Part shown: positions 9,389-29,446 of the stretch, piece after piece
Layout: every line of letters starts with the position of its first letter
Position numbering within the stretch: position 1 is the first letter of the stretch
From: Fragilaria crotonensis
Taxonomy: Eukaryota; Bacillariophyta; Fragilariophyceae; Fragilariales; Fragilariaceae
DNA length: 29,750 nucleotides
Assembly (NCBI GenBank): GCA_022925895.1
Contig: JAKSYS010000730.1
Span: 1 to 29,750, forward strand
Direction of reading: 5' to 3'
Program-made: the position numbers and the translations under genes
The notes under the pieces: model-generated
Seen by the model: only the letters and a program-made list of their open reading frames with translations
Database searches by the model: none
Told to the model about the DNA's origin: nothing

Positions 9389-9483
9389 ACACAATTTTCT
9401 AATTTAGTTTTTCGCAAGTACGTTCTGTCCGTCGTTCGTAATTGCGTATCCCGAATAGGAAGTTGTCGCGTACCTCAACCACC

Positions 9484-12066
9484 ATGACCATGACCGCCCA
9501 AGCGGCGCTCCCATCGCCCCCAGACCCCGCAGCATATCATGACCCTCGTCACCCTACGTATGGATTTTATACACAGGAGTGGAAAGATATGCCGTCTCCT
9601 CCGGTAGGCCAGGAATGGTTTTCCGCAGAAGAATGCTATCGTCGTGAAGCCAACGCTCATGCGTACAAGCAACATGGAACACCTCAGAATTGGCTCCGAT
9701 ACTTGATGCTTGGGTTTTTCGTGTATGATGACTGTTCCAAGTTCGACAACGTGTGGATGAAGTACAGTGCAGATCCCATCATGTGCCACCGTATGGTTTG
9801 GTATAAAATCATGTATCATGTTGACCGCAAGATTGACATTCCATTCACCTTATCGGCGTGGGCTACTGACGTGTCTCAGCCATATCTGCAACGTTATGCT
9901 CCGCACTATCTAGCCATCAACATGATCGATACTACATGGACTGACTATATTTGTGGGGAACGTGACACTATGGATATTGAGCTGAACAACTGGACACAGG
10001 TGGGCCGCAAGCACAAGAGCCCGAGGAGTAAATCCCCACCTACTGTTTCTGGAGTCTCAGCCCCCGCGGGTCTTCAAAACGGTCCTGATGAGAGAGCTGG
10101 AACAACCAACAAAAACATGAGAACCACTAATGTAAATCGGGCTCAAGACTCAGTATTGGAAACGGATGGCGAATTGAGGACTGACTCAAACATGACGACA
10201 GGCGTAGTCGAGGATCGATCTGACAATATATTCCCCCATCAGCAACCAAGGCCATCCGATGTATCCCACAGCACCGAAGACAACCCATCAGTTCTACAAC
10301 CAGATCTATCCGTTCCAACGAATGACGGTACCTATCGTCTCACAATTAGATGGAATATCAAGGGTGACTTCTCTCGCTACCATGAAGAATCGTCCCTATG
10401 GCTCACTGATGTTCACGCCCTTCTATCCGACATGTTCCCGGGAAACGACTGTTACTTCTACCGCTGGGAAAGCGTCGATTTACAATCCCCGACAACTATG
10501 AAGTCTATGTCTCCAGGAGAGTTACGTGATTTCATTTCTCCTAATGTTTCCTTCCTGCAATCTACGACACAAATTATCTTTGGTGTTCGTGTTTGCTTTG
10601 CTGAGAAATTTCCTGGTCAGTGGAGAACATCCGAGAATACTGTCCGAACACTCGCCGACAACAACGTTCAAGTTTCGATATCCAACTCTACCACATCCAG
10701 CGGCAGAATTGTCACTGCAGGCTACATTCTTTTTAAAGCTGCGCGAACGACACATCGGAACCGCTATCTGCAAAGCCTTCGAAAGCGCCTTCCAAAAGAA
10801 ACTCCATTCTTTGACATTTTGCTCTATCAACGCACTCCAATGGAACAGAAGATCAGTCATTTAGTTATCCAGTGTGGGGAGGCACATGTCTCACCCCTGT
10901 CGCAAGCTCTCTCGGCTCTTTTGACAGGACATAATGCGCCTTTGTTTCTTTCTCGCCTTGCACTTGCGAAACTTCAGCCACAACAGATCAGTGAATACTT
11001 TGAAATGCAAGACCGCTATGCAAAATCATTGAAATCATTTCCTTTGTTTCCCACTTTACTCAACTTGGATAAAGTAAGGAAGGAAATCTACGACAATGGA
11101 GAAGTTATTGAACGATCTACTAGAGAGTGGGCAAGTACAATATTCAAGGAAGTAGATGACCCGTGTGCACGATGCGAGGTTGTGAATGGCGGGTACGATC
11201 AAAAAGCATACCTCTTGGTTCCAAAGAATTTTGAAACACATGTCTCGGAATCTCTCCGTCAGTATCGCCTCCGGATCAATCCCATCGGTCAGAGGGAGGC
11301 TCGTTTTCGCGATAGTCTTATGGGACTTCCTTCGGTCATTCATGTCGACTTATCCATCCAGAAGAATCTTGATCTTCTGGCCCATATGGCATCCACGGCC
11401 GCTTGGAAGCCATCAGACTTTCCATCTGTAAGTGGAAACGACCAGGTACATCCCAATGCTAAGTTGCAACTTGGTAATGGAAAAGGAGCAAGCAGCAGCA
11501 CTGTGCCACCCAGCAAGAAGCATAGTCAACCGGATCGGAGTATGACTACCGGGAGGACTGGAAAAACAAGTCGCAAGACCTATGCAGGGGCAGTATCAAA
11601 TTCAGTTTCGGAATCCGACATCGGCGATGATACCACTGTTTTCACCCACTCAGCAACACTATCTGTGATTGCACCATCGTTCCTCTCTTCCGCAACAACG
11701 CGCCGTTTAGACGAATTGGAAGCCTTGTTTCGAAGACAACAACAAGAAGAAACGTTAGACCAATCCACTCTGACATCTCAAACAACAACACGACTAGCAC
11801 ATATCGAGTCCAAACTGGGAAGGATCGATGATATGGATACAGTTCTCAATGGCAATCGGGACAAACTTGCTATCACGATGGAACGACAACAAGATTCTCA
11901 CGTCCAAATTTTGGATCTGAATCTTCGAGTTTCCAAACTTATGGACGTCATTGACCGTATGGCTTCCCGTATTGAGGTTTTGACAGAGGCACTGGTCAAT
12001 GAGGAGTTGCATAATAAAGGAAGGCTCCTCGCCAAAGGCCAACACGACAGGAAAGCTCGACGGTAA
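9484..12066 (+). CDS. LINE ORF1, gag-like RNA-binding/coiled-coil protein
   Basis: 860 codons from ATG at 9484 (context CCACCATGA); the frame is open a little further upstream, but no earlier ATG exists there. Residues 1-160 form an aromatic-rich N-terminal domain (YHDPRHPTYGFYTQEW, WLRYLMLGFFVYDD). Residues about 165-280 are a Ser/Thr/Gln-rich linker. Residues about 281-640 are a mixed alpha/beta region with no motif I can name. Another polar, Lys/Ser-rich linker follows. Residues about 740-850 are a coiled coil (LDELEALFRRQ, LAHIESKLGRID, ILDLNLRVSKLMDVIDRM). LINE ORF1 proteins commonly trimerise through coiled coils and coat the element RNA; that role is inferred here. No CCHC knuckle is visible in the frame. 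Unlike ORF2, it is intact. Confidence 0.85.
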   Translation: MTMTAQAALPSPPDPAAYHDPRHPTYGFYTQEWKDMPSPPVGQEWFSAEECYRREANAHAYKQHGTPQNWLRYLMLGFFVYDDCSKFDNVWMKYSADPIMCHRMVWYKIMYHVDRKIDIPFTLSAWATDVSQPYLQRYAPHYLAINMIDTTWTDYICGERDTMDIELNNWTQVGRKHKSPRSKSPPTVSGVSAPAGLQNGPDERAGTTNKNMRTTNVNRAQDSVLETDGELRTDSNMTTGVVEDRSDNIFPHQQPRPSDVSHSTEDNPSVLQPDLSVPTNDGTYRLTIRWNIKGDFSRYHEESSLWLTDVHALLSDMFPGNDCYFYRWESVDLQSPTTMKSMSPGELRDFISPNVSFLQSTTQIIFGVRVCFAEKFPGQWRTSENTVRTLADNNVQVSISNSTTSSGRIVTAGYILFKAARTTHRNRYLQSLRKRLPKETPFFDILLYQRTPMEQKISHLVIQCGEAHVSPLSQALSALLTGHNAPLFLSRLALAKLQPQQISEYFEMQDRYAKSLKSFPLFPTLLNLDKVRKEIYDNGEVIERSTREWASTIFKEVDDPCARCEVVNGGYDQKAYLLVPKNFETHVSESLRQYRLRINPIGQREARFRDSLMGLPSVIHVDLSIQKNLDLLAHMASTAAWKPSDFPSVSGNDQVHPNAKLQLGNGKGASSSTVPPSKKHSQPDRSMTTGRTGKTSRKTYAGAVSNSVSESDIGDDTTVFTHSATLSVIAPSFLSSATTRRLDELEALFRRQQQEETLDQSTLTSQTTTRLAHIESKLGRIDDMDTVLNGNRDKLAITMERQQDSHVQILDLNLRVSKLMDVIDRMASRIEVLTEALVNEELHNKGRLLAKGQHDRKARR

Positions 12067-12457
12067 CCGTCGCAGATCTCTGGACGAAATGAAATACGAA
12101 GAGGAAGACAAACAATTTCAAAACAACGGTGGTTCTAAGTCTATGAACATCCTACAAGATCAGCCGTCCATTCATGCTCAGATGAAAAATGATTCTCGTC
12201 GTGCGATTGTCACCGTTTCATCTCCGACGAAGAAAAAATCCAGGTCATTGCAGGATGAATTAGAGGAAATGTCGGTAGGTTCTCACGAATTTGACGACAT
12301 CTCAGAAACACACGAAATGGTATACGATCAATCAGAAATTTGTCATCAAGATGCTCGTTTGTCGATGGATGAGTCCGATGAATGTTCTTCACCAAAGCCC
12401 GATCTGGACACTCAATACAATATCCATAGTGTTCCAGAGGGAGGCGAGGTTGAATGA
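11999..12457 (+). pseudogene. possible N-terminal extension of LINE ORF2 overlapping ORF1
   Basis: ATG at 11999 lies inside the last 68 bases of ORF1 in another frame. The frame is acidic and Ser-rich (KKKSRSLQDELEEMSVGS) and ends in TGA at 12455-12457. After that one stop the same frame stays open into the endonuclease. Either ORF2 began at 11999 and the TGA is a mutation, or this is a spacer peptide and ORF2 starts downstream. The uninterrupted frame argues mildly for the first. No domain is recognised. Confidence 0.45.
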
Positions 12458-14221
12458 CAGAGGATTCACACCACCCCACAGCACTCAACACAGGTCACCT
12501 CACAAGATGATCATCATAGTACATGGCCCCAGTATCATGCCGAAACGCAAGAGCATACAGCTACATCATGCCGACGCGGACAATACATGTCTCGAGGCGA
12601 GGATCGCCATCCACCCATCAATCCGTCACAAGTCCTGCTGTTCGCGACGAAACGACCAGGTCGTTTGCATACACGCAAATCCTGCGATGATGCGGCCAAT
12701 AGTACCTTTGGGGAAACAATTGTTTACAAAGCTCCGGACACCACCAGATTCATGTTTCAAAATGTCAAAGGCTTGACTTACAACCAATCTGGAGATGACT
12801 ACAATTATTATCTATCATCAATGATTTCGTATTCAATCGATGTTTTTGGCATGGCTGAAACCAACTCCGGATGGCAACACCACTATGTTCAATCTAAGTT
12901 CAAACAATGCCTCCGCAGACAACTTTACATTGGTAAAACGTCATTTGGTTCTCCGACACAACAGGTTGATCCGTTAGAGGACAGCGAAACGTTTCAAGCT
13001 GGCAGTTCGATTCAAGTGGTGGCAGGAAGTCTCACTACAACTGTTTTTGGAGATCCTATTCACGATTCCACGGGTTTAGGTCGATGGTGTGGCTTTACTT
13101 TTATTGGCAAGGCAGAGCAGAAATTGAGCGTCATCACGGGGTATCGTACATGCAAAGGTTCTGTCTCAACATCACCACTGGGAAGCACATTTCATCGCGA
13201 GTATGCCTACTACCGAAATAAAGGTATCAAAAACCCGCAACCGAGAACAGAGTTTCTAAAAGACTTGGCACTCACGATTCGGAATCTCCAACAACATGGT
13301 CATGCAATTTTACTTATGATGGACGCAAACTCGACACTGACGTCTGACAAGTCACATGACTTATGGGATTTGCATTCATCCAATCCAGCACCGTCGACAT
13401 ACATCGGATCCTCGGATCAGAGGATTGACTACATATTTGGTTGTTCTAGAACGCGGTCCGCCTGCACCAGGCAAGGGACTTTATCGTATTTTGAAGGTCC
13501 CCAATCTGACCATCGATCATTGTACGTAGATCTGGATTTACAGGTTTTACTCAGCATTACTAATATCACCGGATCGCTCAAGGCAACGCAACCTCAACGA
13601 TGGCTACGAAGTGGAAATCCCGAATCCGTAGAGATGTACGTAGCAAAAATGCGAGACTACTACGCAACACACAACATGCGAGAACGGATTGACACGTTAT
13701 GGAAAACACATAAGGCCTTGACACGTTCACAGGTCAGACGCATCTTGACGGCATGGGATGAAGATCAAGGACATGCCACGCTTGCCGCAGAATCCGTCCT
13801 GGCGACAAGACCCAAGAAGTACCAATGGTCTCCGCGTTTGCGGAATGCAGGTATAGTCTATCGGTATTGGAAATTGCGATTACGAGAAGTGACTCACCAT
13901 GAGGACTACTCCTCAACTTTTCTTCGGTGGGAGCGACAAATTCAGGAATATGATCCATCGTTTACACTATCCCATAACAGTAATGTGACGACGATTCCTG
14001 ACATTCGAAAGCAACTCAATCAGGCCAAGAAACATCTTCGCAAGCTACAAAAGACATCAACTCAGAGTCGAGTTAAATGTTACGAAGAGCTGCTTGATGC
14101 TTTGAAGCCGACGCAAACCCGGCTACGAAGCAAGAATCACAACGAAGAGCAAAAATCGTCTCCAGGACAATCAAGACTGAGGCGATCAAATCTATGTATC
14201 AGAAAATACGACAGACGGTGA
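12458..14221 (+). pseudogene. LINE ORF2 segment 1: APE-type endonuclease
   Basis: First ATG in frame is 12587. The domain spans about 12750-13550. The expected catalytic landmarks are present: Asn in FQNVKGL, Glu in GMAETNSGW, Asp and Asn in LMMDANSTL, SDQRIDYIFG, and the terminal Asp-His in QSDHRSLYVDL. This enzyme nicks the target DNA to prime reverse transcription. After the domain a basic helical linker (RLREVTHHEDY, QAKKHLRKLQK) leads towards the RT. Between about 14100 and 14140 the reading frame moves by one base: the continuing protein is read in the next frame (RRAKIVSRTIKTEAIKSMYQ), and the last 25-30 codons of this frame, ending at 14221, are spurious. Confidence 0.88.
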
Positions 14222-14916
14222 AACCATCTGATCATTCAGGCTTAGCTCAGCTTCAGATTCCGCGCGACCCTACGTATGGAATTACAATAGATCCTGGCCA
14301 GGTTCACACAGTGTTGGAACACACACCGAGCGACCAACTAGTCTGGGATACCATAATCAATAGAGAGGATATCGAGCGTCATCTCTTAAGCTTCAACAGG
14401 GAGGCCTTTCGAGCAGCTGCGGAATCACGGTGTGGCAGAGGAGTGATTCATGACGCACTTCTCCAAACGAGCTTATCAAGCAAAGTGGAAACTTGCCTTG
14501 AAGGAGAGATACCGGATTCCTGGGATATTGACAATCAACTGCTTCGAGAGTTCTTGGAATCTTTTCATATTCCATCTTCGGTGTTGGAGACAGGTCCGAT
14601 AAAATTGGAGATCACAAATGCCGATATTATGAAGGGATTCAAATCTTGGAAAGAGACGACGACAACGTCACCCTCGGGTCGCCATTTAGGGCATTATAAA
14701 GCCATCGTCTCAGACACCATGCTTTTGACGTGTTTCCGCAAGTTCCTGAATATTGCAGTGTCAAGAGGAATAGCCCCTCCGCGATGGTGTAAAGCGGTGA
14801 ACATCATGCTGGAAAAGGATCCTGGGCGACCAAAAATAAACAGGCTCCGTATAATTCATCTGTTCGAAGCCGATTACAACCTTTTTCTAAAATTATGTGG
14901 GGTTCTAGACTCGTGA
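14143..14916 (+). pseudogene. LINE ORF2 segment 2: N-terminal half of reverse transcriptase
   Basis: Same protein as segment 1 after a frameshift; true coding in this frame begins upstream of the ATG at 14194. It includes the RT entry motifs: GFKSWKETTTTSPSGRHLGH (about 14635-14697), the substrate-facing loop of this retroelement class, and the block around PRWCKAVNIMLEKDPGRPKINRLRIIHLFEADYN (fingers, Lys and Arg of motifs 1-2, about 14778-14880). A one-base indel at about 14893-14896 then switches frame: the family continuation WGSRLVRR is read in the next frame and this one ends at 14916. Confidence 0.88.
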
Positions 14917-15419
14917 GACGTTCGGTCGAGTTAAATCTGCTGAATAACGGTCAACATGGATTGGTTCTGGGAAGGACTACAATGGATCCAGTCAGCATGT
15001 TAAATCAACTGACAACAGATCTTTGCCGATTGTTAAAGATTAACTACATTCGATTCGACAACGATGCTTCGGTCTGTTTCGACAGGAAAATTGTTGCTAT
15101 TGGCATGCTCGCAGCTCGTCGGTGCGGTATGCCAGTTGAAGCAGTGCGTACACATTCCAAGGCTCTTGCACTCATGCAATATATGGTAAAAACTGTGTAT
15201 GAGGTTTCCGATGGCTCGTATGGAGGTACGACATTTGAACCACTCTTCAGAACAGGACAAGGAAGTGGGGCATCTCCCTCTGTATGGTTATCGCTGGTCG
15301 TTCTTTTGTTAAATACGTTAGAAAAGGTCGTCCCTGAGAGAATTCACTTCAAATCGGCAGATGGGACCATTGTTCATCAAAGACTTGTGGATGCTTTTGT
15401 CGACGATACTGCCATTTGA
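14895..15419 (+). pseudogene. LINE ORF2 segment 3: reverse transcriptase palm
   Basis: Begins at WGSRLVRRSVELNLL. It holds motif A with its aspartates (RFDNDASVCFDRKI, about 15050-15090), motif B (RTGQGSGASPSVW, about 15248-15286) and motif C as FVDD (about 15400-15411), so the catalytic triad of the polymerase is preserved. TGA at 15417-15419 directly follows FVDDTAI, and the same frame continues sensibly after it (LTDSGRLSMTELIASLEKVAQTW), so this is a point nonsense mutation, most simply from GGA. It is fatal for translation of the thumb and RNase H. Confidence 0.9.
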
Positions 15420-15474
15420 TTGACAGACTCTGGAAGATTATCCATGACCGAACTTATCGCATCACTGGAAAAAG

Positions 15475-18192
15475 TTGCACAAACCTGGTGCCTTGAATTT
15501 AAACAAGTGTTCCTGGTACATCATGTTTTGGGATTGGCGCCAAGGACGACCATATCTTCGGGAGGTCGATCCCCATGATCCGCAAATTCGACTGTTTCTA
15601 GGGTCGAACATACACAACAGGGTTGCGATACGACGACAGCTGTTGCATAAATCAGCACGTATCCTGGGTGTGTTTCAAACCCCATTAGGAGATTTCTCCG
15701 ATAATATTATGGTAATGAAGAAAAAGGCGGATCAATATGCAAGTCATCTACGATCCCCTCGATTGACGCAGAAAGACATCAAGGTGTTTCACAGGTCTGT
15801 TTACTCACCAGCAATGAAATATTCACTCCCCGCACTGGCGATCGATGAGGAGGAATTGGAATGCGTGCAGTCTAAGATTATTCCTACCATTGTTCAACGA
15901 TTGGGTTTTTCCAGCAAAATGGCGACTGTTATCAGATACGGACCCACATCCATGGGAGGCTTAAATCTGATGGACCTTCGCACGGAATGTGCTGGCATCG
16001 AAACGATCAAATATTTCAGACATGAAGTATACGGCAATACCAACGTCGGTCAGCTCCTTTTGGTCCAAATTCAGGCATCACAACTAGAGGCTGGACTCCC
16101 GGTCAATCTATTGGAGGAACCAACAGTTCACATCCCCTATCTCACACCGACATGGATTCTATCAATGCGGCAGTTCATGTCGAATCATAACATTCAAATC
16201 ACGGTGACAGATCCATATCATCTCCGTCTCAGAGGTTCAAGCGGCCAATACATAATGGACCTGAATCGACTCAAGGGATATACGCCCCGACAGCAAAAGG
16301 ACATCAACCTGGTTTGGCTTCATCTGCAGTCAATCACATTGTTGGATTTAGTGGATCGATCGGATGACACCAAAATAGCAACATGGGCACTGGAGGCTCG
16401 GCGACCTTCGGATTTCCACGAGGATGAGTCATGGCCAAGGCAACCGGTCCTCGGGGCATCAATGAAACACATATGGCGTAGATATATATCTTCGCAATGT
16501 TTGAGATATGACCGCTTCTGGAAAGAATCCCCTGGACACGAGATCCGTCGTCATGGCGCCGAAAATGTGTCTTCACCAACAAAGTCAACAATAACAGGAT
16601 CAACTATCTCCCAGGCAATCAAACAGCTACCTCGACATCGTCGTCGCCTTCTGTCGCATGTTAGGCAATTGACATCATCCGATCGGTTGTGGGAGGCATG
16701 TCAAACGAAACAGACGTTAACAATAGCTTCCGATGGTGGCCTGAAAGGACGTCAAGGGACGTTTGGATGGTTAGTGACGACGCCGTCAGATGAGATTCTG
16801 GTCGAAGGAGCGGGACCGGTTGATGGGTCGTTCGACACGTCAAACTCTACCCGGTGCGAACTCGGTGGATATGCTGCTTCATTATTATTCCTCTCTCTCC
16901 TAAATTCGTTATGGGGCAAACGTCACAAATGCAAGTTTCGTTGGCTCACAGACAGTAAAGGTGCGATCGCCAAGGTACTACAGAGGCATTCCAGTCAACA
17001 TCTTCAGATCAAACAACGACAACCGAGCAATGCAGATTATCTTGGCATCATTCAGGCCGAGACCACCGCAATACGTCGGCGGATAAAATCAGTATGGGTG
17101 AAGGGACACCAGGCTTCGACAGCAGGAAGAGGTAATCGTCGAGACATAAAGTGGAACAATCATGCCGACAATTTAGCCTCGTGGTATCGTGGTCAGAAGA
17201 CTCAAAGACAATCGGTCGAACACACTGACCATACTCCTGAAGCACGTGTATCCATTGTCATCAACGGAGTACGGGTAGTCGGTCAAGAAGAGGCGTCTTT
17301 ACGATATCACATTAACGGATATCACCTTCGGCAGTACATGCAGTCGCGACAAAAGTGGACAAATCTATTCGGAGCGTTCCACAATCAACTGTCCCACAGG
17401 GCACAGACTGCTCACACGAAGTTTGTTTTCGAGCAATGGTACACAGGGAATAAACGACTTCAAACTGCAAACACCAAAGACGATAATCTCGATAAGTGCC
17501 CATGCTGTAGGGTACATGGTGAATCATGGCAACACGTGCTTCAAAGTGTTCACAACCCGGACAGGGCTACGATTCTGAAGGATTTGGCAAAGAGTCTGAC
17601 TCCGACAGACTTCCACCCAGTGTTTCCATTACTGAGGAATGGGATCATGGCATGGCTCGACGGTCACACATATGAACCCGATCTTTCCGGTTTTCCTACG
17701 AAAATGTGGGCTCTCATTCGCACCGCATTCACTGACCAGGAACAGATTGGTTGGCACAACGCAATGAAAGGTTATATGAGCGTCGCGTGGCGAGCCATAG
17801 CGGAGACGGACCCATATGGAACCGATATAATGACTCAAGACGGGAAGGGGATTCAGACTCTCCGAACCATACTGACCCATGTTAATCAAACCGCCCAATG
17901 TTTATGGAAAGCTCGAAACAACATCCTGCACCAATCAAATGAGGCAGAATTGCAACTCGTCGGAGATTCCGAAATCGCAGAGATTCGAGAGATGCATGCA
18001 AGTACGGAAAAAATTCCTGCAGCCGATAGACACTATTGCATACGACCACTTGCTGCGATTCTCAAGAAAAATCCTTCGTCGCGGAGACGGTGGCTGCGAT
18101 ATATGAGGATGGCGAGATCCCGCATGGAAAAAGACGGCAGATGCCAATTACTGTTGACACAATTTTTCGACCCGTCAGTAATTGAGATGTGA
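15475..18192 (+). pseudogene. LINE ORF2 segment 4: RT thumb, RNase H, zinc motif and C-terminal domain
   Basis: Real coding starts at about 15487 with GALNLNKCSWY; the join to segment 3 (AQTW at about 15478-15489) lacks several residues expected between the two blocks, so a small deletion changed the frame. The remaining roughly 900 codons are open. RNase H (about 16715-17190) shows its acidic residues in order: Asp in ASDGGLKG, Glu in TRCELGG, Asp in WLTDSKGA and Asp in NNHADNLA, with KGHQ between. The zinc motif CPCC...H near 17497-17547 has Ser (AGT, 17545-17547) where copy 1 has the last Cys. The C-terminal domain ends in SSRRRWLRYMRMA and LLTQFF before TGA at 18190-18192. RNase H would degrade the RNA template during second-strand synthesis. 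Confidence 0.93.
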
Positions 18193-18640: not shown

Positions 18641-18668
18641 ACTACATCTAAGGGTGCCAAAACTAAGT
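18641..18668 (+). repeat. left terminal inverted repeat
   Basis: It begins ACTACATCTAAGGGTGCCAA and matches the reverse complement of 29419-29446 at 27 of 28 positions; the difference is T here and C there at position 24. Confidence 0.85.
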
Positions 18669-18713
18669 ACCATAGTTGATACAAGAATTTTTTATCATAG
18701 TTACTGGAAAAAT

Positions 18714-18857
18714 TTCAGGATTCCCATATTTAGCTCAGGATTCCTGAAGTATTGTTCAGGTTTATTTATTTAGTTCAGGATTCTGAAGTTTGCTGTTTCC
18801 TCATTTTTATGAAGAATTTTTTTTGCTCCTGAACTACTGCAGTATTATTCCTGAGCT
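18714..18857. repeat. left subterminal TCAGGA motif cluster
   Basis: Motifs related to AGYTCAGGAWT occur at 18714, 18733, 18754 (partial) and 18771 forward, and 18826 and 18848 reverse. The one at 18735-18747 forms TCAGGATTCCTGA, a near palindrome. Similar motifs cluster at the right end. Probable transposase-binding sites by analogy with CACTA elements. Confidence 0.65.
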
Positions 18858-18910
18858 TTTTTCTTCATAATTTCGACACACATAAAACACCGAGTACTGT
18901 ACGTGTTTTG

Positions 18911-18934
18911 TACGACATACTGGAGTATGTCGTA
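18911..18934. repeat. short perfect hairpin
   Basis: TACGACATAC and GTATGTCGTA are perfect reverse complements around TGGA. It opens the GTAC-rich repeat block. Confidence 0.6.
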
Positions 18935-19070
18935 TCGTGGGTGGGCTAGTGTTTGTGCCGTACAGTGTACAGTATACAGCGTTTTTTACACCGTCTGCTG
19001 GGATACCGTACTAGCGCATGGTTTGTACGCTGTACATTCATTGTACGTTGTACAAGTGTATCACAGCTAT

Positions 19071-19140
19071 GGTGTCTGGTGTCTGGTGTCTGGAGTCTGG
19101 TGTCTGGTGCATGGTGCATGGTGCATGGTGTTCGGTGCGT
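19071..19140 (+). repeat. minisatellite of ten 7-bp units
   Basis: Ten head-to-tail heptamers: GGTGTCT x3, GGAGTCT, GGTGTCT, GGTGCAT x3, GGTGTTC, GGTGCGT. Two homogenised sub-blocks (TCT type and CAT type) indicate local slippage expansion. Plus-strand open frames through this block are artefacts of the repeat. Confidence 0.9.
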
Positions 19141-19588
19141 GGTACAGTACGTTTATGGTGCGGCTGGTGGTGTACAGTGTCTATTATGCTTGTGAGGTTA
19201 ATGACGTAGTACGCTATCGAGTACGAAAGTACCGTTACTCAGTTCAGTTAGAATGCTGGTACAAAAGCCAGTATGCTATTGCGTGCTTATGTATGGTATG
19301 TGTTGTAGGTACCGTCGTGAAACATACAGAGTATCTTACACGACGGTGTATTGTGTATTGTACGGTGGTGTAGTATTGTATTGTGTGTGCTGCAGTGTCA
19401 TGTACGCAGAGTACTACCAGGTAGCTAGCTACCGGTAGTCGTATGAGCACAATGCCGTCATACGTGTGTCCTTTTGTGCGTTGCGAGATCAATTTGTACA
19501 TTTGTACGGGATAAACATACTGACCTATTTTTGGCACCTGCAGTACCAGTGTTTTCCGTACATTTCTACAAGGAATGCTATCTTATAA

Positions 19589-20106
19589 AGCCATCGTATT
19601 GTTTTATGTAGAAACTTACCTGCGAATTTTTGCGGAAGCATGTCACCTCAATTCTTCATTTGGTGCGAACTGCACTTCGTGTCAGACCCAACACCGCAGT
19701 GAATGTTCCATTCTCTGCCACCTTCGCCTCCCACTCTTCGTTTTCAGACGAACCACACTCCTCTCCTGTCTTTGTTGGTGAGTTGTGAATGTTGTGTGCT
19801 GTTTGAGTGTTGATTGATTCGTTTGATCAATCAACAGGATTGATGATGAGTTTTTTCATGCGATTTTCAAGGTGCTGCGGTCGTGCGTGTACTGTCTCCT
19901 ACGTACAGTAGCGCGGTACTGTCTCCTACGTACAGTAGTTGGGGTGCTGTCAAATACAGTACCGCGGAACTGTCAAGTACGGTACCACGGTACTGTACTT
20001 GACAGCACCCCAAGTACTGTGCGTAGGAGACAGTACCTCGCTACTATATAGGCAACGGTAGACCAGTACTACTACTGATCTACCATCCACTCCACTTTGA
20101 CACTGG
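19589..20106 (+). repeat. tandem duplication, unit A
   Basis: It starts AGCCATCGTA and shares long stretches with unit B: ACTGCACTTCGTGTCAGACC, GTGAATGTTCCATTCTCTGC, a GATCAATCAACA core, AAGGTGCTGCGG, and the closing ACTGATCTACCATCCACTCC. Unit A is longer because it carries the complete palindrome at 19916-20036, which in unit B is reduced to part of one arm. Confidence 0.85.
19916..20036. repeat. 121-bp palindrome (long hairpin)
   Basis: The outer 38 positions of each arm pair with only two mismatches (19916-19953 with 19999-20036), and pairing continues imperfectly for about 16 more, leaving a small GTAC-rich centre. A half copy of the arm precedes it (19891-19911). It would fold into a strong cruciform or a double-stranded RNA. 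Confidence 0.88.
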
Positions 20107-20472
20107 AGCCATCGTACTATTGTTTTACATACAACGCTATTCATTTGCCAACTGCACTTCGTGTCAGACCCAACACCCAACACTGCAGTGAATGTTCCAT
20201 TCTCTGCCACGTTGCCCCTCTTCATTTTCAAACGAACCACACTCTTCTGCCTTTGTTGGTGAGTTCTTGTGAATGGCGTTTGTTTGAGTGTTGATTGATT
20301 GATCAATCAACACGATGATGATTTCCTCATGGGATTTTCAAGGTGCTGCGGTTGTGCGTGTACTGTCGCCTATGTATGGTAGCCGTGGTGCTGTCAAGTA
20401 CCGCGGTACTGTAAACAATGGTCGACCAGTACTACTACTACTGATCTACCATCCACTCCACTATGACACTGG
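20107..20472 (+). repeat. tandem duplication, unit B
   Basis: A second, shorter copy of unit A, sharing its start (AGCCATCGTA) and its end (ATCCACTCCACT...GACACTGG). It lacks most of the palindrome. The 20-base block ACTGCACTTCGTGTCAGACC near 20151-20170 is identical in both. Confidence 0.85.
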
Positions 20473-20922
20473 TGCAGCAGCCCTTGTACAGTACTACTGT
20501 GTCAATTTCATCGTTCACCAGCACTTGTGTGACTTTCGAGTTGAAGACTAAGATACCACTTCGTACATGTGCTGGCTCGTTCTTCATGCTTGTTGTACTA
20601 ATCTCCTTCCACTCTCCTTCCTTTTATGCTATTCCTTTTGAAAACTACTAGGAGCGTGGTGACGACAAGTGTTGTGCTTCTCATTTTGTTGTTAATTGAG
20701 GGAATAAGTACTTCGTCTTGTGTGCGTGCTTCGATTGAGTTTGTAAGGCAATCTGTCATCTAGAATCCAATATTCGGTCATCTGCGAGATTCTCATTGAT
20801 TTGAGTGAATCAAACCAGATTGATCTACGGTATTGGTTCTTTTTGTCAGTTGTCTGTTCGCATGCTCAAGAGTTGTATACACGCACACCAGTTGGAGGAT
20901 TATTCATATTTCAACCAACAAA
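20473..20922. other. region upstream of the GNAT/protease-like gene
   Basis: No supported coding. GTAC density falls after about 20600. By position it should contain the promoter and 5' UTR of the plus-strand gene whose first good ATG is at 20923. Confidence 0.4.
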
Positions 20923-21239
20923 ATGGCAGAGGTTCCATCACTGTCCCCTGTCTCTCGTCAGCAAGGAGGAGTCCCTATGGATAAGGCGTACCTGTTCCGT
21001 GATGGTATGGATGAATTCACACCACCTCCAGGAACAAAGGTCAATAGACAATTCAGATCGCAAGTTCGAGTCTTTTATCATCACCCGCTCGTGCTGTTTC
21101 AGAGTTTCCACTACACATGTTCAGCTCTTGGTTTCAAGACCTCCCGTTGTCCAAGATTATGACTCAGAACGAAGAGAGGACTCCAATGAAATTTGGCAAT
21201 TCAAGGTAGTTACATTGTACCCCACGTGTCCAAACAAAC

Positions 21240-21982
21240 AAAGCTGAGGCGACAAGGTTTAAGTGGGCGACAGAAGCTGCAAGGCAATTCTACAGCACAT
21301 CATTCAATTCTACAGAAGCTGATTTGAGCTCTATCGATCGTGCTGTGAATTCTGATCCATCAATAATGATTGTGGGACGTCCTCTTGGAAAGAAGATGAC
21401 CCCTTCAAGAAATCTGTCATAGGGTGCCAAGACTCTGTTGTTATTGCATGCATTACATTTGAAGTGGAATTGGAGATGAAGTTGGTGCGTCGTTGGTGCT
21501 TTGGCTGTTGATTGCAGAATCTGAATCACGGAAGCCATCCGGTCTTACATCCTGGAGACGGCAAGGGTTTTGGGCGTCTGATGTTAGTAATGCTCATCAA
21601 GCATTCAACTTTTTATTATTGTCTCACCGTGAGCTGTCACAATGTCAGGAGAGCCTGCATGGTGTGGACATCTACTTGCAGTGTCCCCATGGCCAGAAAG
21701 GAATTCTACCAAGCCTGTGGGTTCCGTCAAATCAATCTCCAAGACACAACTGGCATTGAGTTTCTTCCCAAGACAATTGCCGACACCTTAATGGACGAGA
21801 CCACAGGTGGATTTGCGTGGATTGTACCAGATTCTGAGGAGCACTGCATTATCCCTCTGATGAAACTTTCTTCCGGTTCCCTTTTGAACAGTGCTGCTAA
21901 CAGTGCTGCTGTCGAGGTTGTTGAAAGCAACAGTGATGTGATCAGTGCAACAAATGATGGTTCCCCCGTGTGCTGTTGTTGA
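21240..21982 (+). pseudogene. GNAT-like acetyltransferase fragment
   Basis: In frame pieces it reads IVGRPLGKKM, SVIGCQDSVVIACITFEVELE (beta strands), GKGFGRLMLVMLIKH (acetyl-CoA-binding loop of motif A, pattern GxGxG/A-like), VDIYLQCP, ARKEFYQACGFRQINL (the FY...GF hallmark of the last GNAT helix and strand) and GFAWIVPDSEEHCIIPLMKL. At least three frame changes occur (about 21408, between 21470 and 21540, and about 21690). GNATs transfer acetyl groups to lysines or small amines; the substrate here is unknown. The fold is inferred from these motifs and needs a profile search. Confidence 0.55.
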
Positions 21983-23115
21983 GTCAGAGGAAGAAAGCAA
22001 GATCAATATAGTATGGAAATCCAGATGTCAACTGATGTGAAATCGAAGGAGCACATTTGCTGTTTTCCACAGGGAATATTCACAAAACTGTTTAAAAGGG
22101 TTGATTCGGCTTCCATTTCCTACTTGCATGCGATGAAAGCACAGTGGTTTTTGCTGTTTGATCGCATTGCAGAATTTCAACACGTCACAGTGCCAAAACG
22201 TCAGAATTCAAATCATTTGATGGATCCCTGTTACGGAAGTCTGAAGTTGGAACTTCAGACTTTCACGTGGCCCTGGATGCCAGTACCATCCAATGCCGCA
22301 GAGGAAGACTGTGTGACCTCACAGGACGACAGTGTTACGTTGGAGGATGTTTCTTCCAGGGAGGATGTTTCGCGAAATGCCAATGAACGGAGTTTGCCAT
22401 CAGAGGAGGATGTTGCCGATTTCAAACCATCTGGATCTGCTGATGGACCTGAACAACAGGAAGAAGATATTGATCTCAACGAAGCCTGGTGGAATGATCC
22501 TGCTAAGCTTCCCCCGAGCAAGCAGGGTATGGAAAGGTGGGCCTCCTCGTACGTATGGTTATGGAGACATTCATGTACCTGATGAATGCCCGAAATTACC
22601 TTTTGGAGAAAGTAGGTACAAAACATTGGTATCAGACAATGAAATTGAGAAATTTAGAAAAAAGTGGCGAAAGAAAGGAGATGAGAAAGATCAGTCAGTG
22701 CTTCTGAGGGATGAAGAGGCAATGAACAAATTTGTGGAGGACAGATTTTTGTACTGGGGTTGGAGCTCTACCAAAGATCACCTGAAGAATGTGGAAAAGA
22801 AGCGGGCCGAGATGCAAAGAAAAATTGATGGATGTAAGAAGAAAAGACGAAGGATGATTACAGAGAGCAGTACACGAAAGAAATAAAGTTTATGAAGAAG
22901 GAAAGGAAGAAATTCAAAGGGCATTTGAATTGGAATGGACATTTGGCACTGAGGCCATGGTGCATGGCCTCAAGTACAACAACGTGAAGATACCTTTGTT
23001 GCACTTTTGGTTTACAATGTTAAGACAAAAGAAGGAAAGTTGGAAATGAAGGAAGAAAAAATTGCTGTTTCAAAGACTGGATCAAGGATGCCGATTATGC
23101 AAAGGGTAATCCAAC

Positions 23116-24078
23116 ATGTCATTAACGGAAACACGGATGGATTTGTACTTGTTCCTGAAGGAAACCATCCTCATTCATACTAAAAAGGTACATAAGCTGC
23201 AATACGTTCACCCACAGACACAATGGGTGTTTGATCCTCAGTCGAAAAGGTCCTTAAGGAGCAACAGTGACTCACCAGGGGGTAAACATATGAAGCAGAT
23301 ACAGGCCCCTGGTTACTGGGAGGTCATCTTTCATGGAGAAACACAGCCCATTCGAACTGATGAAGACTTTGTGAAACAATTTAAGACAGGATTCTTGGAG
23401 GAGGTCAAGCGTATGAGGTGTGGATTTGTTGACATACCAGTGGGCGATTTCAAAGAATCACATTTGCATGAATATCCCAAGCTGCAGGTTCCTGAAGCAC
23501 CCCAGGTGCACTTTGTACAATCCGAAGGTGAAGATCTTTGTGTTTCAAAGTCATTGGCCAGTGCTTTATATGCAATTGGCTTTGATAATGCTGCCAAATC
23601 CATTAACCATTTTGGTGAAAGTCACCTAAGAGGAGGTACTGTTGATGCCATTCGAAAGGTGGGACAGTTTGCTGAAACTCAGCTGCCTACATGGATCACC
23701 CGAAAAGTTCTGAAGAGACCACACATGTTTGATTGGCAACTCCTTCAAGAACAAATGAAGGACACAATGGTATTGGCTGTGCTCAATGAATCCGATGGAA
23801 ATGGTTCACATGCAGTTACCATTCACAGTGGGTATGTGTATGATGCAAATGAAGTGGTTGCAATTCCTCTCTGCAAGGAGGCCTTGGATTATTGCTGCTC
23901 AACCTCAACTGTGAAGAATGAGTTTGTGAGCTTTCGGAAGGCAACTCTTTTTTATGATGGCCCAGACATCAACAGGAAGGCAAGTTTTACTCTTTGGGTA
24001 GATTCAAACAAGCGAGCCGATGGTGATGGTCCAAAGATTGTGAGGGCTCGACAGACGATGGCAACATGTTTCCTTTAG
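23116..24078 (+). CDS. cysteine-protease-like domain ORF of the transposon
   Basis: 320 codons from ATG 23116 to TAG 24076. It is the longest intact piece of the plus-strand gene, though this ATG may not be the native start. Order: a basic N-terminus, GYWEVIFHGETQPIRTDEDF (residues 66-85), a middle strand-rich part, then a segment with a candidate triad in papain-like order: Cys142 in DLCVSKSLASALYAIGF, His232 in GSHAVTIHSG and Asp243 in YVYDANE. A Cys at the head of a helix, a His in a beta strand and an Asp 11 residues later suit C39, OTU or transglutaminase-like folds. I recognise it as a diatom family of unknown function; protease activity is a hypothesis. No signal peptide or membrane segment. 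Confidence 0.55.
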   Translation: MSLTETRMDLYLFLKETILIHTKKVHKLQYVHPQTQWVFDPQSKRSLRSNSDSPGGKHMKQIQAPGYWEVIFHGETQPIRTDEDFVKQFKTGFLEEVKRMRCGFVDIPVGDFKESHLHEYPKLQVPEAPQVHFVQSEGEDLCVSKSLASALYAIGFDNAAKSINHFGESHLRGGTVDAIRKVGQFAETQLPTWITRKVLKRPHMFDWQLLQEQMKDTMVLAVLNESDGNGSHAVTIHSGYVYDANEVVAIPLCKEALDYCCSTSTVKNEFVSFRKATLFYDGPDINRKASFTLWVDSNKRADGDGPKIVRARQTMATCFL

Positions 24079-24691
24079 GTACTTTGATGCAACAAGCTAG
24101 CTAAGCGAATTTGGATGCCCACTCTGTATATGGTTTTGTCTCAAGAACTGTGGAACTGTTGTGTGAGATGGATATAACAAAACAGGGGGCCACGACAGTG
24201 TTTCCAGAGACAAGGTGGTATGTTGGAGACCACTTCCACTCTCTCAACAGGGTTGACTCGTGTTCTTTAATTTCTTCTGTTGTGGATTGAACAACCAGTT
24301 GGTATCTCTCGTCCGGATCCCGGGTGAGTCAACAACAACTACAAGAGCCAAACGACAGGAAACTTCCCATGTTCCCAAAGTCAATTATCATCCAGTCATG
24401 TATGGGACCATCGGACTGATAGCAGGGATGACATCGAAAGGTGTGGACATCTCGTTTGTATTCAGTACAAAAGGTTATTGAGTCGGATTCCTTAAAGGAA
24501 TCAAAAAACTCAATCAACTCCAGGGAAGAGCAAGTAAATCACGGTGAGTTCTGGTGTCCCATTCAATTTTGTACTGAATTTGTTTACTCGATTTGAATCG
24601 ATAAACACAGCCAAATGTTGCTTGTCCGGTGCTCTGAAAGATTCCATTCCTTGTTGTTTCATCATCATGGTGGCTGTCGGGTACATCAGCA

Positions 24692-27010
24692 TCACCATCT
24701 GGTTGCTCCCATGCGCGTGTGTATGGTGTCGATCATGAAGGAGTACATTAAACGTTGGGCTGCCTGAAGTTCATATGCAGAACCCTCAATTCGCTTCTGT
24801 GCCCGTCTCCCAGGGTGCTTTGCAGCAGGAATTAGAAGTGATTCTGGACGCTGTGCACAAAGTTCACTGGAGAGCCAAACCGAGACATATCATCCACAAT
24901 GTGTAACAACTCATGGAATTTCGGAAACTTCCATGCATCCTCGGCATTGCTTTTCTGTCCTTCCTTCCTTATGATGGTTCCCTTTTTCTTACCCTTTTTC
25001 TTGTCATCCTCCTTTCCCTCAACTTTCAAGGGAATGGACTGTTTGCACATATCCATGAAATTGCGAATGGAATCCTGATGTTTCTTCATTTCATTTGCAA
25101 CATGTGCTGGATTTGTAGTCTCCCAGTAATGACTCTGGTTTAGCCAAGCATCGAAACAAAGGAGAGATTCAAGTACTTCAAGGACCTCAGGAACCTTCTT
25201 AGTTGTTCTTTTCTCAAGACATGTTTGGATCATTTGCCATCCTGCTTCATATTGGAAGAGGATGACAAACAAAAAAACGAGGCCAACGCGTTCTGATGCA
25301 GTTATCTTTGTCAAATTTGTTACCCCATTGCTGAAATCTGTTGATGGATACTCCTTTCGGTAGGTTTGGCGATGAGACTTGTGAAATGCTATTGCAAGGT
25401 CATCAAAGGCAGCCTTCTTGGATGCTGGAAGACTGTCAATATAAGTTTTGTTACTTTCTCGATGACACCTTTCCGAAATGCATGCATTGTCTCCACAGGA
25501 GTGGCCCCAAAGATTCCACGCTCAGGGTCAGCAAAGGCAATGTGTTCAAATGCATTTTCAAGTTTATGTTGAGACCATCGTTTCCTGAGATCATCATCAT
25601 TACTCCTGGCAATGAAACCCATATCCGAGGCTACCAGGTATTTGCAATGGACATCACAGTTCTTCAGATCATCATAATTGACATCACAGCACCGATGAGG
25701 CGTTGGATTCCACTGGTGTGAACACCATACCGACCACACAGCATATCTCCTTCTTGCATATCTTGAATGATGAACAACACACATGTGACAATGTCGACAC
25801 AGATTCTACCCTTTGGACCAATTGGCAAATGAACACCACACAGTTGTGGTGAACATTTCGAAAGGTCTCCAATACAGCATCCAGCTCCTTATGATAGATA
25901 CGAATGGCATCGTATACGAAGTGTCTGCTTCTGAGCTGATGAGGACTTCCTCTTTGGGAGAAAGCCATGATAGCCCCATGCCTTGATACTCCTTCTGAAT
26001 TTTTCTGTAAAAATGGCTGGAGTGAACATGTAGGGTTTAAGTGAAAAGCGATCATTCCCTGTTACAGAGGTACGATCAATCCATTGGATGATTGGAACAA
26101 ACAATTGCTTCTGAGGATCTGTGATTAATCGATCATACGCCTTGCGATAGACACTCCCGGACAGTGCCTCACCCAAAACATTGCTGCCTTTCAATTTGTG
26201 GTAGGGCTTCAGGGGATCATTGATATCAATGGCAAGGTTTTCTGCAGTCATAATGCTTGGATTTTGCAGCAAACTTAGCAACTGTGAAGCGAAGTCAAAA
26301 CAAATCACATCTGATGGAGAGCCATGATGTACATCCACTCTTCGTACAAAGGGAAGCAGTCTTTTCCCATTACGAACTGAGTTGATCAGGGCATCAACAT
26401 TTTGGCACGAGAGTCCACCCACTGGGTTGTAAGAATAATTATCAGCAGATGCAGAGCGTGCCCACTCCAGGACTTGACCAAAAGTGTAGTCGGGTGCATT
26501 GGCATGGTCCAGGATTTTGAGGAGAGAAACAGTCCACTTCTGATCGGTAGTATACATGAAGTTTGAACGAAATGATGGGGCTTCCACATCTTCATCAAGT
26601 GCAGAATTCGTACAGGTAAGAATGTTTGGGTCATCACTTAACACGGACAAATCATCACTTTTGTTGCAGTCCTCGATGTCCTCACAAGAAGTGCTTTCAA
26701 CTTCCACACCATTGCCAGCCGGAAACTGCAGAAGGTTGTCTGTGCCATCAAAATCCATGTGGGGATCATTCACCATATGTCGCCTTAAAAGGGCAGGCCT
26801 CTTGTTACTTGTGCATGTGATATTCCCATCCTCATGAAGACGGCGACGGTGTGAAGCAGAAGCCCCATGTGTTGCTGCATGGTGTGATTTCTTCACAATG
26901 AAATTATAACACCCGATGTTTCTATCAATATGCTGTGTATATGCTGCTTGATTGGAAAAGGGTTTCTTGTTGAAATTCAGGCAGAAGGGTTTTGACAGAA
27001 GAGCAGGGTG
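24692..27010 (-). pseudogene. Plavaka/CACTA-like DDE transposase, frameshifted
   Basis: Read from right to left: a zinc-finger-like N-terminus (NQAAYTQHIDRNIGCYNF, about 26960-26905); the long open piece 26896-25889 with an acidic linker, TFGQVLEWARSAS and the first catalytic candidate in PIIQWIDRTSVTGNDRFSLKP (Asp274 of that piece); then, after frame changes near 25900 and 25720, CDVNYDDLKNCDVHCKYL and GIFGATPVETMHAFRKG (about 25700-25470); KKAAFDDLAIAFHKSHRQTY (about 25410-25350); 25314-24832 with KITASERVGLVFLFVI; and finally PESLLIPAAKHPGRRAQKR (about 24860-24800) before TGA at 24692-24694. This is the layout I know from diatom Plavaka-type transposases. At least four indels disable it. 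It catalyses element excision and integration in the nucleus when intact. Confidence 0.75.
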
Positions 27011-27388
27011 CCTTTGAGGAAGCAGACGAGGACAACATTTTGAAGAGAAGGTTTTGAAGAAAGGGTTTTGAAGAGGACGAGTGAAGTGAAAATGAGGTGT
27101 TGAAATTGACAGGACACAGATTCACTAAACAGAAGTTCGGAAAGCGTGCATTCAAATTGTACATTTACTTTCGTACATTTTTGGTGTATGTAAAAATGAA
27201 GGGGTGTGGTATGAATTCAAAATTTGAAAACCCTGCATGAATGTGTAGAACCTACATACCAACTCGGTACTTGGTATGAAATTCAAATGGTGGCAAAAGA
27301 CTATCCCACAAACAGGATTTTCAGTGTTCAAAATTTGGCGCACAATCGGAAAGTTTTCACACAACAAGGAAGCACCACAAATACAACC
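27011..27388. other. divergent intergenic region between transposase and plus-strand gene
   Basis: It separates the minus-strand transposase from the plus-strand gene starting at 27389, so it should hold both promoters. A purine-rich stretch (26960-27100, repeats of AAGAGG and GGGTTTTGA) lies on the transposase side. The transposase frame may begin anywhere in that stretch. Confidence 0.4.
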
Positions 27389-28885
27389 ATGGCATCAATG
27401 GCACACCAAACAGCAGCAGGCATGACTGCCTTAAAGCCCAGCTCTAGGAAACAAAGGAGAGACTTCATAAGGCGTGAAGCAGTGACCACAGATCCCAATG
27501 ATCTGATTCAAAGTGACAACGAGGAGGAGGAGGAAGAAGTGCCACGGAAAATGGATGCAAAACTAGGACAGAAGCATGCATACGAAATCCACCATCCCTA
27601 CCTTCAACTATTAAAGTCGGAAATCAAGTGACAGCCAACTAACATCATCGGTTCCAGGGCTAAGCAGCATAGTGGACATGAGCATGACGGAAAATACAGA
27701 AGAGAATCAAATCAGTGTGATCAAGACTTGCATCAAAAAACACGTGTTCTCTATTTGGAAGTTCTATCAAAAAGACTATCATTCTCATTTCAGTGAAGAT
27801 GAGAAAACACTTTGTGGCTTTATCATGAAGCACACAAACATTCGAGGAACCGAAAACTGGTGGCTTGGGATGCGGAGAATAGTTGTAAAAACACACACTG
27901 ATCTTCGGAACAATGCAATAAAAAACATTTCAAAGGTGAGGAATTGAAGTGAGTGTACTTTGCCAAAGCCCGAGCATACTCACACTCACTTACTTGCATG
28001 CAACATCAAACACCTTGCATCCAGAGGGATTCACTTCCAATTTAGGAACGTATGAACACAGCCTATACAGTGGAAGCGAGGAAGAAACCAGTTACCTCCT
28101 CAAGATGAGGGATAATATCTGCTACTATGCCCAAATCATAGACACCTATGCCCCATGCATTGTCGGCAGCAGCAAGTGGAATAACACTATCAACATGGAG
28201 AACCACTGTGCAACAACTGACAGAAAAGTATGGAGCAAGAAAATCCTGTCCATAAGTGATGAAGCATTCATTTTGCTGTGCCTGATCAACTATGGGAAGA
28301 GGTGGTTCGCGGAATTAGTTAAGACAGAGAAAATGGTAAGTTTATCCGAATGGTTTGTCACAGAACAAACAACAAGAAACTGACTTGTTTTGTTATCACT
28401 TGTTGGAAACAGCGAATTGGTACATGGACTGATGAGGACAACAACAACCTACCCGTAAGTTACACTATGATACTAAATGAAATGAAAAAACCACATCCTA
28501 ACTTCTGACCAATCTTTGCAATACCATGTTCGGCAGCCACCACTTTACACATTCTCCAGGAACAAGGGTGCTCATGATAATGGGGGAGGCTGTGGTTGGT
28601 CACAGGTGGGAATGAGGAAATACGATGAATTATACATGGCCATCAAGAATGATAGAAAGAAATCAACCACCCCAACATTCAACCAGGAACTACTTAAAAT
28701 GTTTCTGTCCAGAAGGAAAAAGGAGTCTGGCCGGGGTCAGGAAACAATTTGATGACAAGGGTAAGAAACGCCCACACAAGTGCATTGATGTATTTGACGA
28801 GGACTCTGATGAGGAGGATGATAACTACTCCAGTCATCTTGCTCCTGAACTTGTCTACAGTGAATTGAAAGTGGAGGCAGTTTAG
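27389..28885 (+). CDS. intron-containing transposon-associated protein, family of unknown function
   Basis: Start ATG 27389 (CAACCATGG). Exon 1 codes a basic then Glu-rich N-terminus (SDNEEEEEEVPRKMD). A frame change near 27628 is either a 40-base intron (27628-27667, with CTAAC) or an indel. Later exons join in phase: 27669-27935 (KHVFSIWKFYQKDYHSHF), intron 27936-28026, 28027-28335 (SISDEAFILLCLINYGKRWF), intron 28336-28412, 28413-28454 (RIGTWTDEDNNNLP), intron 28455-28536, then 28537 onward (GWSQVGMRKYDELYMAIKND). Introns 3 and 4 start GTAAGT and end CAG. A one-base shift near 28735 is needed to reach the acidic tail (DEDSDEEDD) and the stop at 28883-28885. I recall this helix-rich GWS...YNELY pattern beside diatom transposons; function unknown, possibly DNA binding. 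Confidence 0.62.
28336..28412 (+). other. spliceosomal intron (77 nt)
   Basis: Donor GTAAGT after ATG and acceptor GGAAACAG. Removal keeps phase 0 and joins ELVKTEKM to RIGTWTDEDNNN. Confidence 0.75.
28455..28536 (+). other. spliceosomal intron (82 nt)
   Basis: Donor GTAAGT after CTACCC, a possible branch CTAAC near 28497, and acceptor TCGGCAG. Removal joins NNNLP to PPLYTFSRNKG in phase 0. Confidence 0.78.
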
Positions 28886-29082
28886 AATAGATCAGACACT
28901 TAGTAATGAATAGTAGAATGGTTCATCAAAGCCACACGAATAGGCACAATTAAAACTAATCTCCAACAAAAGTTAAAATGAGCGACAATAACATCTATTA
29001 TATGAACAATGTCAGCTCAGAACTACTGAGGTGATTACTTCATACACACTACACAGCAAACTTCTTCTTTTCGAATATCTAA

Positions 29083-29290
29083 TTCAGGAATTGAAATTCA
29101 TGATCACAAATGAAGAAGTGGTATAGTTCATATATTTAGAGTCCAAGAGTTCAGGAATCCCACCCAGTGTTAGTAAAAATGAGTCAGTGAAATTCAGGAA
29201 TTGAAATTTTGGAGCTCAGGAATGCAAAGTATGAGCTCCTATGCAAGAGATGAAAAGTTCAGGAAAATAAATTTCAGAGTTCAGGAATAC
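29083..29290. repeat. right subterminal TCAGGA motif cluster
   Basis: Six TTCAGGA or CTCAGGA motifs, near 29083, 29149, 29193, 29215, 29258 and 29279, all in plus orientation, several followed by AAT(TGAAAT). They match the motif near the left end and lie 130-360 bases inside the right terminus. Confidence 0.68.
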
Positions 29291-29337
29291 GAGAAACCCG
29301 CTTCATACACATGATGTACAAGCTCTTTAGTCCTAAG

Positions 29338-29362
29338 TTTTTACCTATATTTTAGGTAAAAA
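29338..29362. repeat. perfect 10-bp inverted repeat
   Basis: TTTTTACCTA and TAGGTAAAAA flank TATTT, about 60 bases inside the right terminal repeat. No counterpart is seen at the left end. Confidence 0.6.
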
Positions 29363-29418
29363 TTATGAACAAAAAATTATCATATCAAAGATAATTGGTT
29401 TTTCATATCCAAGAGCCG

Positions 29419-29446
29419 ACTTGGTTTTGGCACCCTTAGATGTAGT
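29419..29446 (-). repeat. right terminal inverted repeat
   Basis: Its reverse complement begins ACTACATCTAAGGGTGCCAA and matches the left repeat at 27 of 28 positions. Confidence 0.85.

Follow-up and report, generated by a model that had tools for sequence, protein, structure and literature searches.

A transposon of a type that we call Plavaka, from the motifs and ends of its copies, occupies positions 18645-29442 of the window, the 29,750-nucleotide stretch of Fragilaria crotonensis DNA analysed here (GenBank assembly GCA_022925895.1, contig JAKSYS010000730.1, positions 1 to 29,750, forward strand). Beside its transposase gene the element carries a cargo gene predicted to join a GCN5-like acetyltransferase domain, a SENP/Ulp1-like domain and a papain-like domain. 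We consider it an even call whether this is a Plavaka-type cut-and-paste transposon whose cargo is a likely anti-silencing factor. The evidence lies in the ends and copies of the element, in the linkage and order of its genes across distant families, and in the conserved residues of the cargo and the selection on it.

Ends, class and transposase of the element

The limits of the element were placed by comparing copies, and the features of its two ends in the window are as follows.

18643..18644, no strand: target-site duplication, left (TA), from the flanks of ten copies and the duplication pairs
18645..18668, plus strand: left terminal inverted repeat, 24 bp, from the inverted pair, copy comparison and genome matches to the core
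18715..18855, no strand: left subterminal TCAGGA/TCCTGA cluster (six), with offsets shared by 10/10 copies
29084..29286, plus strand: right subterminal TCAGGA cluster (six), with offsets shared by 10/10 copies
29419..29442, minus strand: right terminal inverted repeat, 24 bp, from the inverted pair, copy comparison and genome matches to the core
29443..29444, no strand: target-site duplication, right (TA), from the flanks of ten copies

A first-pass annotation, made from the letters of this DNA alone, had described a 28-bp inverted pair. That pair is real (18641-18668 and 29419-29446, 96% complementary, one mismatch), but the true terminal repeat is 24 bp long (CATCTAAGG..., opening with CATCTAAGGGTGCCAAAAC, the element itself starting CATC); the 4 outermost bases on either side are flank, and the TA among them is a 2-bp target duplication. 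The duplication is exact in eight of ten compared copies (exceptions C69 and C55). In a second comparison of 18 pairs, two of them cut by contig ends, it is exact in 15 of the 16 testable pairs (exception C21), although the two C95 copies, with similar flanks, may represent one insertion. Across the 62.1 Mb and 881 contigs of the genome that was searched, a 19-base terminal core has 121 matches at no more than 2 mismatches, 100 of these places being listed, and its reversed control has 0. The TCAGGA clusters that had been noticed inside both ends recur throughout the family: the opening 210 bp contain six TCAGGA/TCCTGA, another six lie between about 160 and 365 bp from the right end, their positions agree to within 4 bp in all ten aligned copies, and the rest of the whole element has 8-10. 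Copy C156, whose right end was not found, was excluded from this alignment.

The CACTA ends proposed at first did not stand. Because the ends start at CATC and TA is target duplication, they are not CACTA; the compared copies have termini CATC..GATG with a 2-bp duplication, which rules out CACTA/EnSpm with its CAC..GTG termini and 3-bp duplication. PlavakaB is described with termini CATCA..TGATG and 2-3 bp duplications (PMC12730594; this and the other papers are cited here from partial text). The 2-bp duplication fits, but copy comparisons give CATCT..AGATG, which differs at the fifth terminal base, and for that reason we call the element Plavaka and not PlavakaB.

The transposase itself argues for the same class. 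A piece of 517 amino acids (aa) from the majority frame of seven copies scores 41.3 bits against the Pfam Plavaka family (PF18759; cut-off 26.3), whereas the longest transposase frame of the window's own copy scores 21.7 bits, below that cut-off. Stop to stop, the majority frame of this seven-copy subtype spans 887 aa; elsewhere in the genome, frames of 765 and 714 aa are natively open, and the protein database holds a protein of 981 aa (P0016) that is 96% identical to the transposase query. The motif set described for Plavaka is D, D, C(2)C, H(3-4)H, E (PMC12730594), and with positions that we assigned from that description, 91/91 relatives of at least 840 aa, among the 120 listed, have the two catalytic Asp, H(3)H and the Glu. 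Of these 91, 66 also have the first Cys of C(2)C, for which the window's family has a His. More distant transposases (34-36% identity) with long open stretches lie at C518:35664, C30:104805, C137:67892, C17:66658, C43:100947 and C170:64804; genome searches for the cargo gave no match near these six, save for the C518 copy itself.

The minus-strand transposase had been taken for a remnant. The gene is real, and Plavaka by the score of its majority frame; its broken state is probably for the most part assembly noise. Seven copies of one subtype depart from the ten-copy majority by 2-19 substitutions and by 16-54 deletion runs per 11.8 kb, mostly of 1 bp. Homopolymers at least 3 long account for 18% of bases and for 59-83% of the 1-bp deletions. 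The published Fragilaria crotonensis assembly combines Nanopore reads with short-read polishing (PMC9476933). Because the copies differ mainly by 1-bp homopolymer indels in a Nanopore assembly, most of their frame breaks are probably noise in repeats, and we reject decay as the main cause. A deletion of 1.1 kb in the window copy is separate from these frame breaks and is real in this assembly.

The cargo gene and its linkage to the transposase

The cargo gene adjoins the transposase gene tail to tail, and a third gene lies towards the right end.

20923..24104, plus strand: cargo gene, broken in this copy, with start and end by alignment to other copies
21401..21790, plus strand: part of the GNAT-like domain, with the WRRQGFG motif at about 21553 and an approximate outer limit, from the fold in a divergent relative
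22012..22013, no strand: junction of the 1.1-kb deletion that removes the SENP-like domain, from copy comparison
23461..23976, plus strand: papain-like domain (Cys 23539-23541, His 23809-23811, Asp 23842-23844), from a model, a fold match and invariant residues
24517..27164, minus strand: Plavaka transposase gene, given as the majority frame of the copies from stop to stop and disrupted in the window, from copy alignment and Pfam
27389..28885, plus strand: third gene, with predicted introns, from open reading frames of ten copies, genome matches and 57 relatives

Copy alignments bear out the two plus-strand genes of the first-pass annotation. The GNAT-like and Cys/His/Asp protease-like parts that it recognised sit on one gene, with a SENP-like domain between them in other copies, and predicted models support acetyltransferase-like and protease-like folds. 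The domain order is GNAT-like, SENP-like, linker, papain-like; the window copy lacks the SENP-like domain because the deletion at 22012/22013 takes out what in copy C347, with its 907-aa frame, are residues ~205-583, including the SENP-like His and Cys. In relatives the cargo is a single protein of 1,630-1,790 aa (2 of the 15 in the protein database are named from Fragilaria crotonensis). Five full-length relatives have the three domains in a single frame and in this order. Distant families of the genome retain the order too, as do database relatives at ~30% identity, and the linkers between the domains are long and poorly conserved in an alignment of 11 relatives.

GNAT acetyltransferases share the CoA motif R/Q-x-x-G-x-G/A, which is invariant in 11/11 cargo relatives, and the predicted model of a divergent relative takes the GNAT fold. 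In C48 (Ulp1/SENP) peptidases the catalytic set is His, Asp/Asn and Cys with an oxyanion Gln; here the predicted model takes the SENP/Ulp1 fold, and 11/11 relatives share the active-site His-Trp, Gln and Cys, with an invariant Cys also at the position, placed by eye, where the Asp would be expected. A model of window 23281-24033 gave a tentative match to the papain-like fold, which has Cys, His and Asp/Asn in this order; in the cargo Cys, His and Asp are invariant in 9/9. The best fold rows of the SENP and GCN5/PCAF comparison have 11-14% identity in the aligned parts, and the union of GNAT-like, SENP-like and papain-like domains in the cargo is a prediction from such models. As to a viral origin of the cargo, one scan with the cargo alignment and two peptide patterns found no relative in viral contigs.

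From the 100 listed ends, with four pairs added from other comparisons, we built 40 end-to-end copies and matched them to four gene queries (papain-like part, GNAT/SENP-like part, transposase, third gene); the counts rest on the matches listed, and a gene absent from a count may be a missed match. All four queries match in 17 of the 40, the window copy being counted among these despite its deleted SENP-like part. In another 14, of which 13 measure 6.7-6.9 kb, the third gene is the sole match; eight have intermediate gene sets, and a questionable pairing at a nested site, C21 (1.5 kb), makes up the last. Copies without the plus-strand genes had been named beforehand as evidence against a shared cargo; the 14 copies with the third gene alone look like non-autonomous deletion derivatives, because one of them, read over 2.0 kb, keeps the start of the transposase gene before turning into unrelated sequence. 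Long copies form two subtypes that differ in the left 2 kb. The class of 6.7-6.9 kb copies is uniform, shares the family's ends and matches the third gene only; it is found at C34, C42, C154, C186, C402, C482 and C511, with further members at C549, C563, C599, C658, C694 and C702, and the third gene often has long open stretches in it (409 aa in C702, 403 in C482, 402 in C34). Extra terminal repeats in or beside short copies at C21:49422-52807 and C405:153587-159056 suggest nested or adjacent insertions.

That cargo and transposase travel together, as the first-pass annotation expected, is seen in these 17 copies and again at greater distance. Outside the close family, 47 loci (fragments merged by hand) encode relatives of the papain-like part, and in 38 of them a related transposase lies within 1.6 kb; the transposase searches scored 83/518 and 81/372 candidates. 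All 39 cargo-transposase pairs within 4 kb are convergent. At nine of ten distant GNAT/SENP-like loci the papain-like part follows 1.6-2.0 kb further downstream, on the same strand, the exception being C874. Papain-like relatives of 28-29% identity at C317:72614, C687:24345, C312:42399 and C55:35865, with no transposase match nearby, may belong to another element lineage or be host genes.

Between the two subtypes the cargo differs by 18 nonsynonymous and 17 synonymous changes in 1,169 codons (17 vs 13 in one part, 1 vs 4 in the other). On this count the cargo is under purifying selection (one-sided p 3e-4 against equal rates, with no correction for transition bias). The transposase shows 3 nonsynonymous against 1 synonymous difference, too few to inform on selection.

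The third gene has no Pfam match. Among the matches listed, its relatives lie 6,722-6,727 bp from the papain-like part at four loci and 8,170-8,183 bp at three, with different distances in five more (one of 20 kb) and no papain-like match on the contig in a further three. These relatives sit on the cargo side and not on the transposase side, so the gene set has apparently been kept and the layout has changed. A Fragilaria crotonensis protein, P0192, joins a third-gene exon to a PF13843 domain, named Transposase IS4, as a gene-model artefact or a real fusion. In the neighbouring sequence, window 9442-18192 (plus strand) holds a frame-broken pair of long reading frames that by eye resemble a retrotransposon without long terminal repeats, with endonuclease, reverse-transcriptase FVDD and RNase-H-like stretches; the Plavaka element lies directly downstream.

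Possible roles of the cargo

SUMO favours the formation of silent chromatin in yeast, plants and animals; in Caenorhabditis elegans, SUMOylation of HDAC1 promotes deacetylation (PMC8131101). In the diatom Phaeodactylum tricornutum, ~40% of transposons have H3K9 or H3K27 methylation marks, and H3K9/14 acetylation is activating (PMC4504042). A protein with SENP-like and acetyltransferase-like domains would be suited to reverse both SUMO-linked silencing and deacetylation, and we infer a likely anti-silencing role for the cargo; the first-pass annotation had proposed an anti-silencing or helper role, which has support by analogy. In the mechanism that we propose, the transposase, perhaps with the third protein, would bind the inverted and subterminal repeats and move the element. 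The cargo protein would strip SUMO off host silencing factors at element copies and acetylate nearby histones; the transposase gene would then be transcribed and the element ends made accessible. The papain-like domain may act on the long cargo protein, processing it, or cleave a factor of the host. These substrates and activities are predictions, and that a single protein removes SUMO (or docks on it) and writes histone acetylation, countering silencing without touching DNA methylation, is a tentative proposal to which we give somewhat less than an even chance.

Several observations weigh against an anti-silencing cargo. The strand expected to bear the SENP Asp, placed by eye, reads FFRYCS with an invariant Cys, and Pfam matches to C48 and GNAT fall below the curated cut-offs. 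A sequence profile of the SENP-like part returned no SENP from solved structures and chance-level matches only, the 50 Foldseek rows listed for the model that includes this part are all GNATs with no SENP, and the papain-like model has no Foldseek match at E 0.001 or better. Nine of the 47 distant loci have no transposase match nearby, four of these nine at 28-29% identity, and no cargo match lies near some of the genome's other Plavaka lineages (34-36% identity).

The invariant Cys would also suit a SENP-like domain that reads SUMO instead of cutting it, the fold being kept while the canonical Asp is replaced; such a domain would dock on SUMO-rich silent chromatin and deliver the acetyltransferase. 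We think this unlikely, as an active site of His-Trp, Gln and Cys invariant in 11/11 relatives would be needless for a mere reader. Slightly less likely still is a cargo that helps transposition after transcription, deconjugating or acetylating the transposase or repair factors: its linkage to the transposase is close and always convergent, but the 14 of 40 copies without a cargo match have spread to many places (where help in trans is possible), and related precedents act on silencing. It is improbable that the cargo is a polyprotein cut by its papain-like domain into products with unrelated roles. The long, poorly conserved linkers would accommodate such cuts, but no cleavage site was identified, and the three domains hold to one frame and order in the five full relatives. 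A captured host gene of no benefit to the element is highly improbable and was already disfavoured: transposons often capture genes and mostly lose them later (PMC13317346), as the copies without a cargo match might suggest, but the cargo is under purifying selection and its three domains stay in order in distant genome families and in database relatives of ~30% identity.

Precedents and significance

The nearest likeness to the anti-silencing cargo proposed here is a fungal Plavaka with a TET/JBP dioxygenase (PMC12730594), which shares the Plavaka-type transposase and CATC ends and whose accessory enzyme is likewise thought to counter silencing; that system concerns fungi and DNA methylation, whereas the diatom cargo, if it is as predicted, would concern SUMO and histones. 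VANDAL elements with VANC-type Ulp1 genes (KIU, Arabidopsis; PMC13317346, PMC10398659) also encode an Ulp1-domain accessory protein, and VANC proteins counter the silencing of their own family. Their transposase is of the MULE type and not Plavaka, and the available text of PMC13317346 mentions no acetyltransferase or papain-like domain. Plant CACTA-ULP has an Ulp1 domain in a transposon whose transposase is related to Plavaka; unlike the window element it is a true CACTA family, and the partial text of PMC2528002 mentions no acetyltransferase. With TET on Plavaka and Ulp1 on VANDAL and CACTA, transposons therefore do take up such domains.

Set beside SENP/Ulp1 and GCN5/PCAF themselves, the cargo shares predicted folds, the CoA motif and the His, Gln and Cys residues, but it puts both on one transposon-borne protein, and the canonical SENP Asp is apparently a Cys. 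Among open-licence papers, judged by titles and the starts of abstracts, we found no transposon with an acetyltransferase, SENP-like and papain-like cargo, and no paper on Plavaka in diatoms (both words co-occur in PMC12633428 and PMC9674265); relative to the transposon-borne TET and Ulp1 precedents, we have not found this combination of domains in print. Known cases of transposon proteins that oppose host silencing are few: VANC in plants is one, and TET on fungal transposons probably another. If the cargo acts as proposed, SUMO and histone acetylation would be a battlefield between transposons and silencing in diatoms, and one that could be tested with a single protein.

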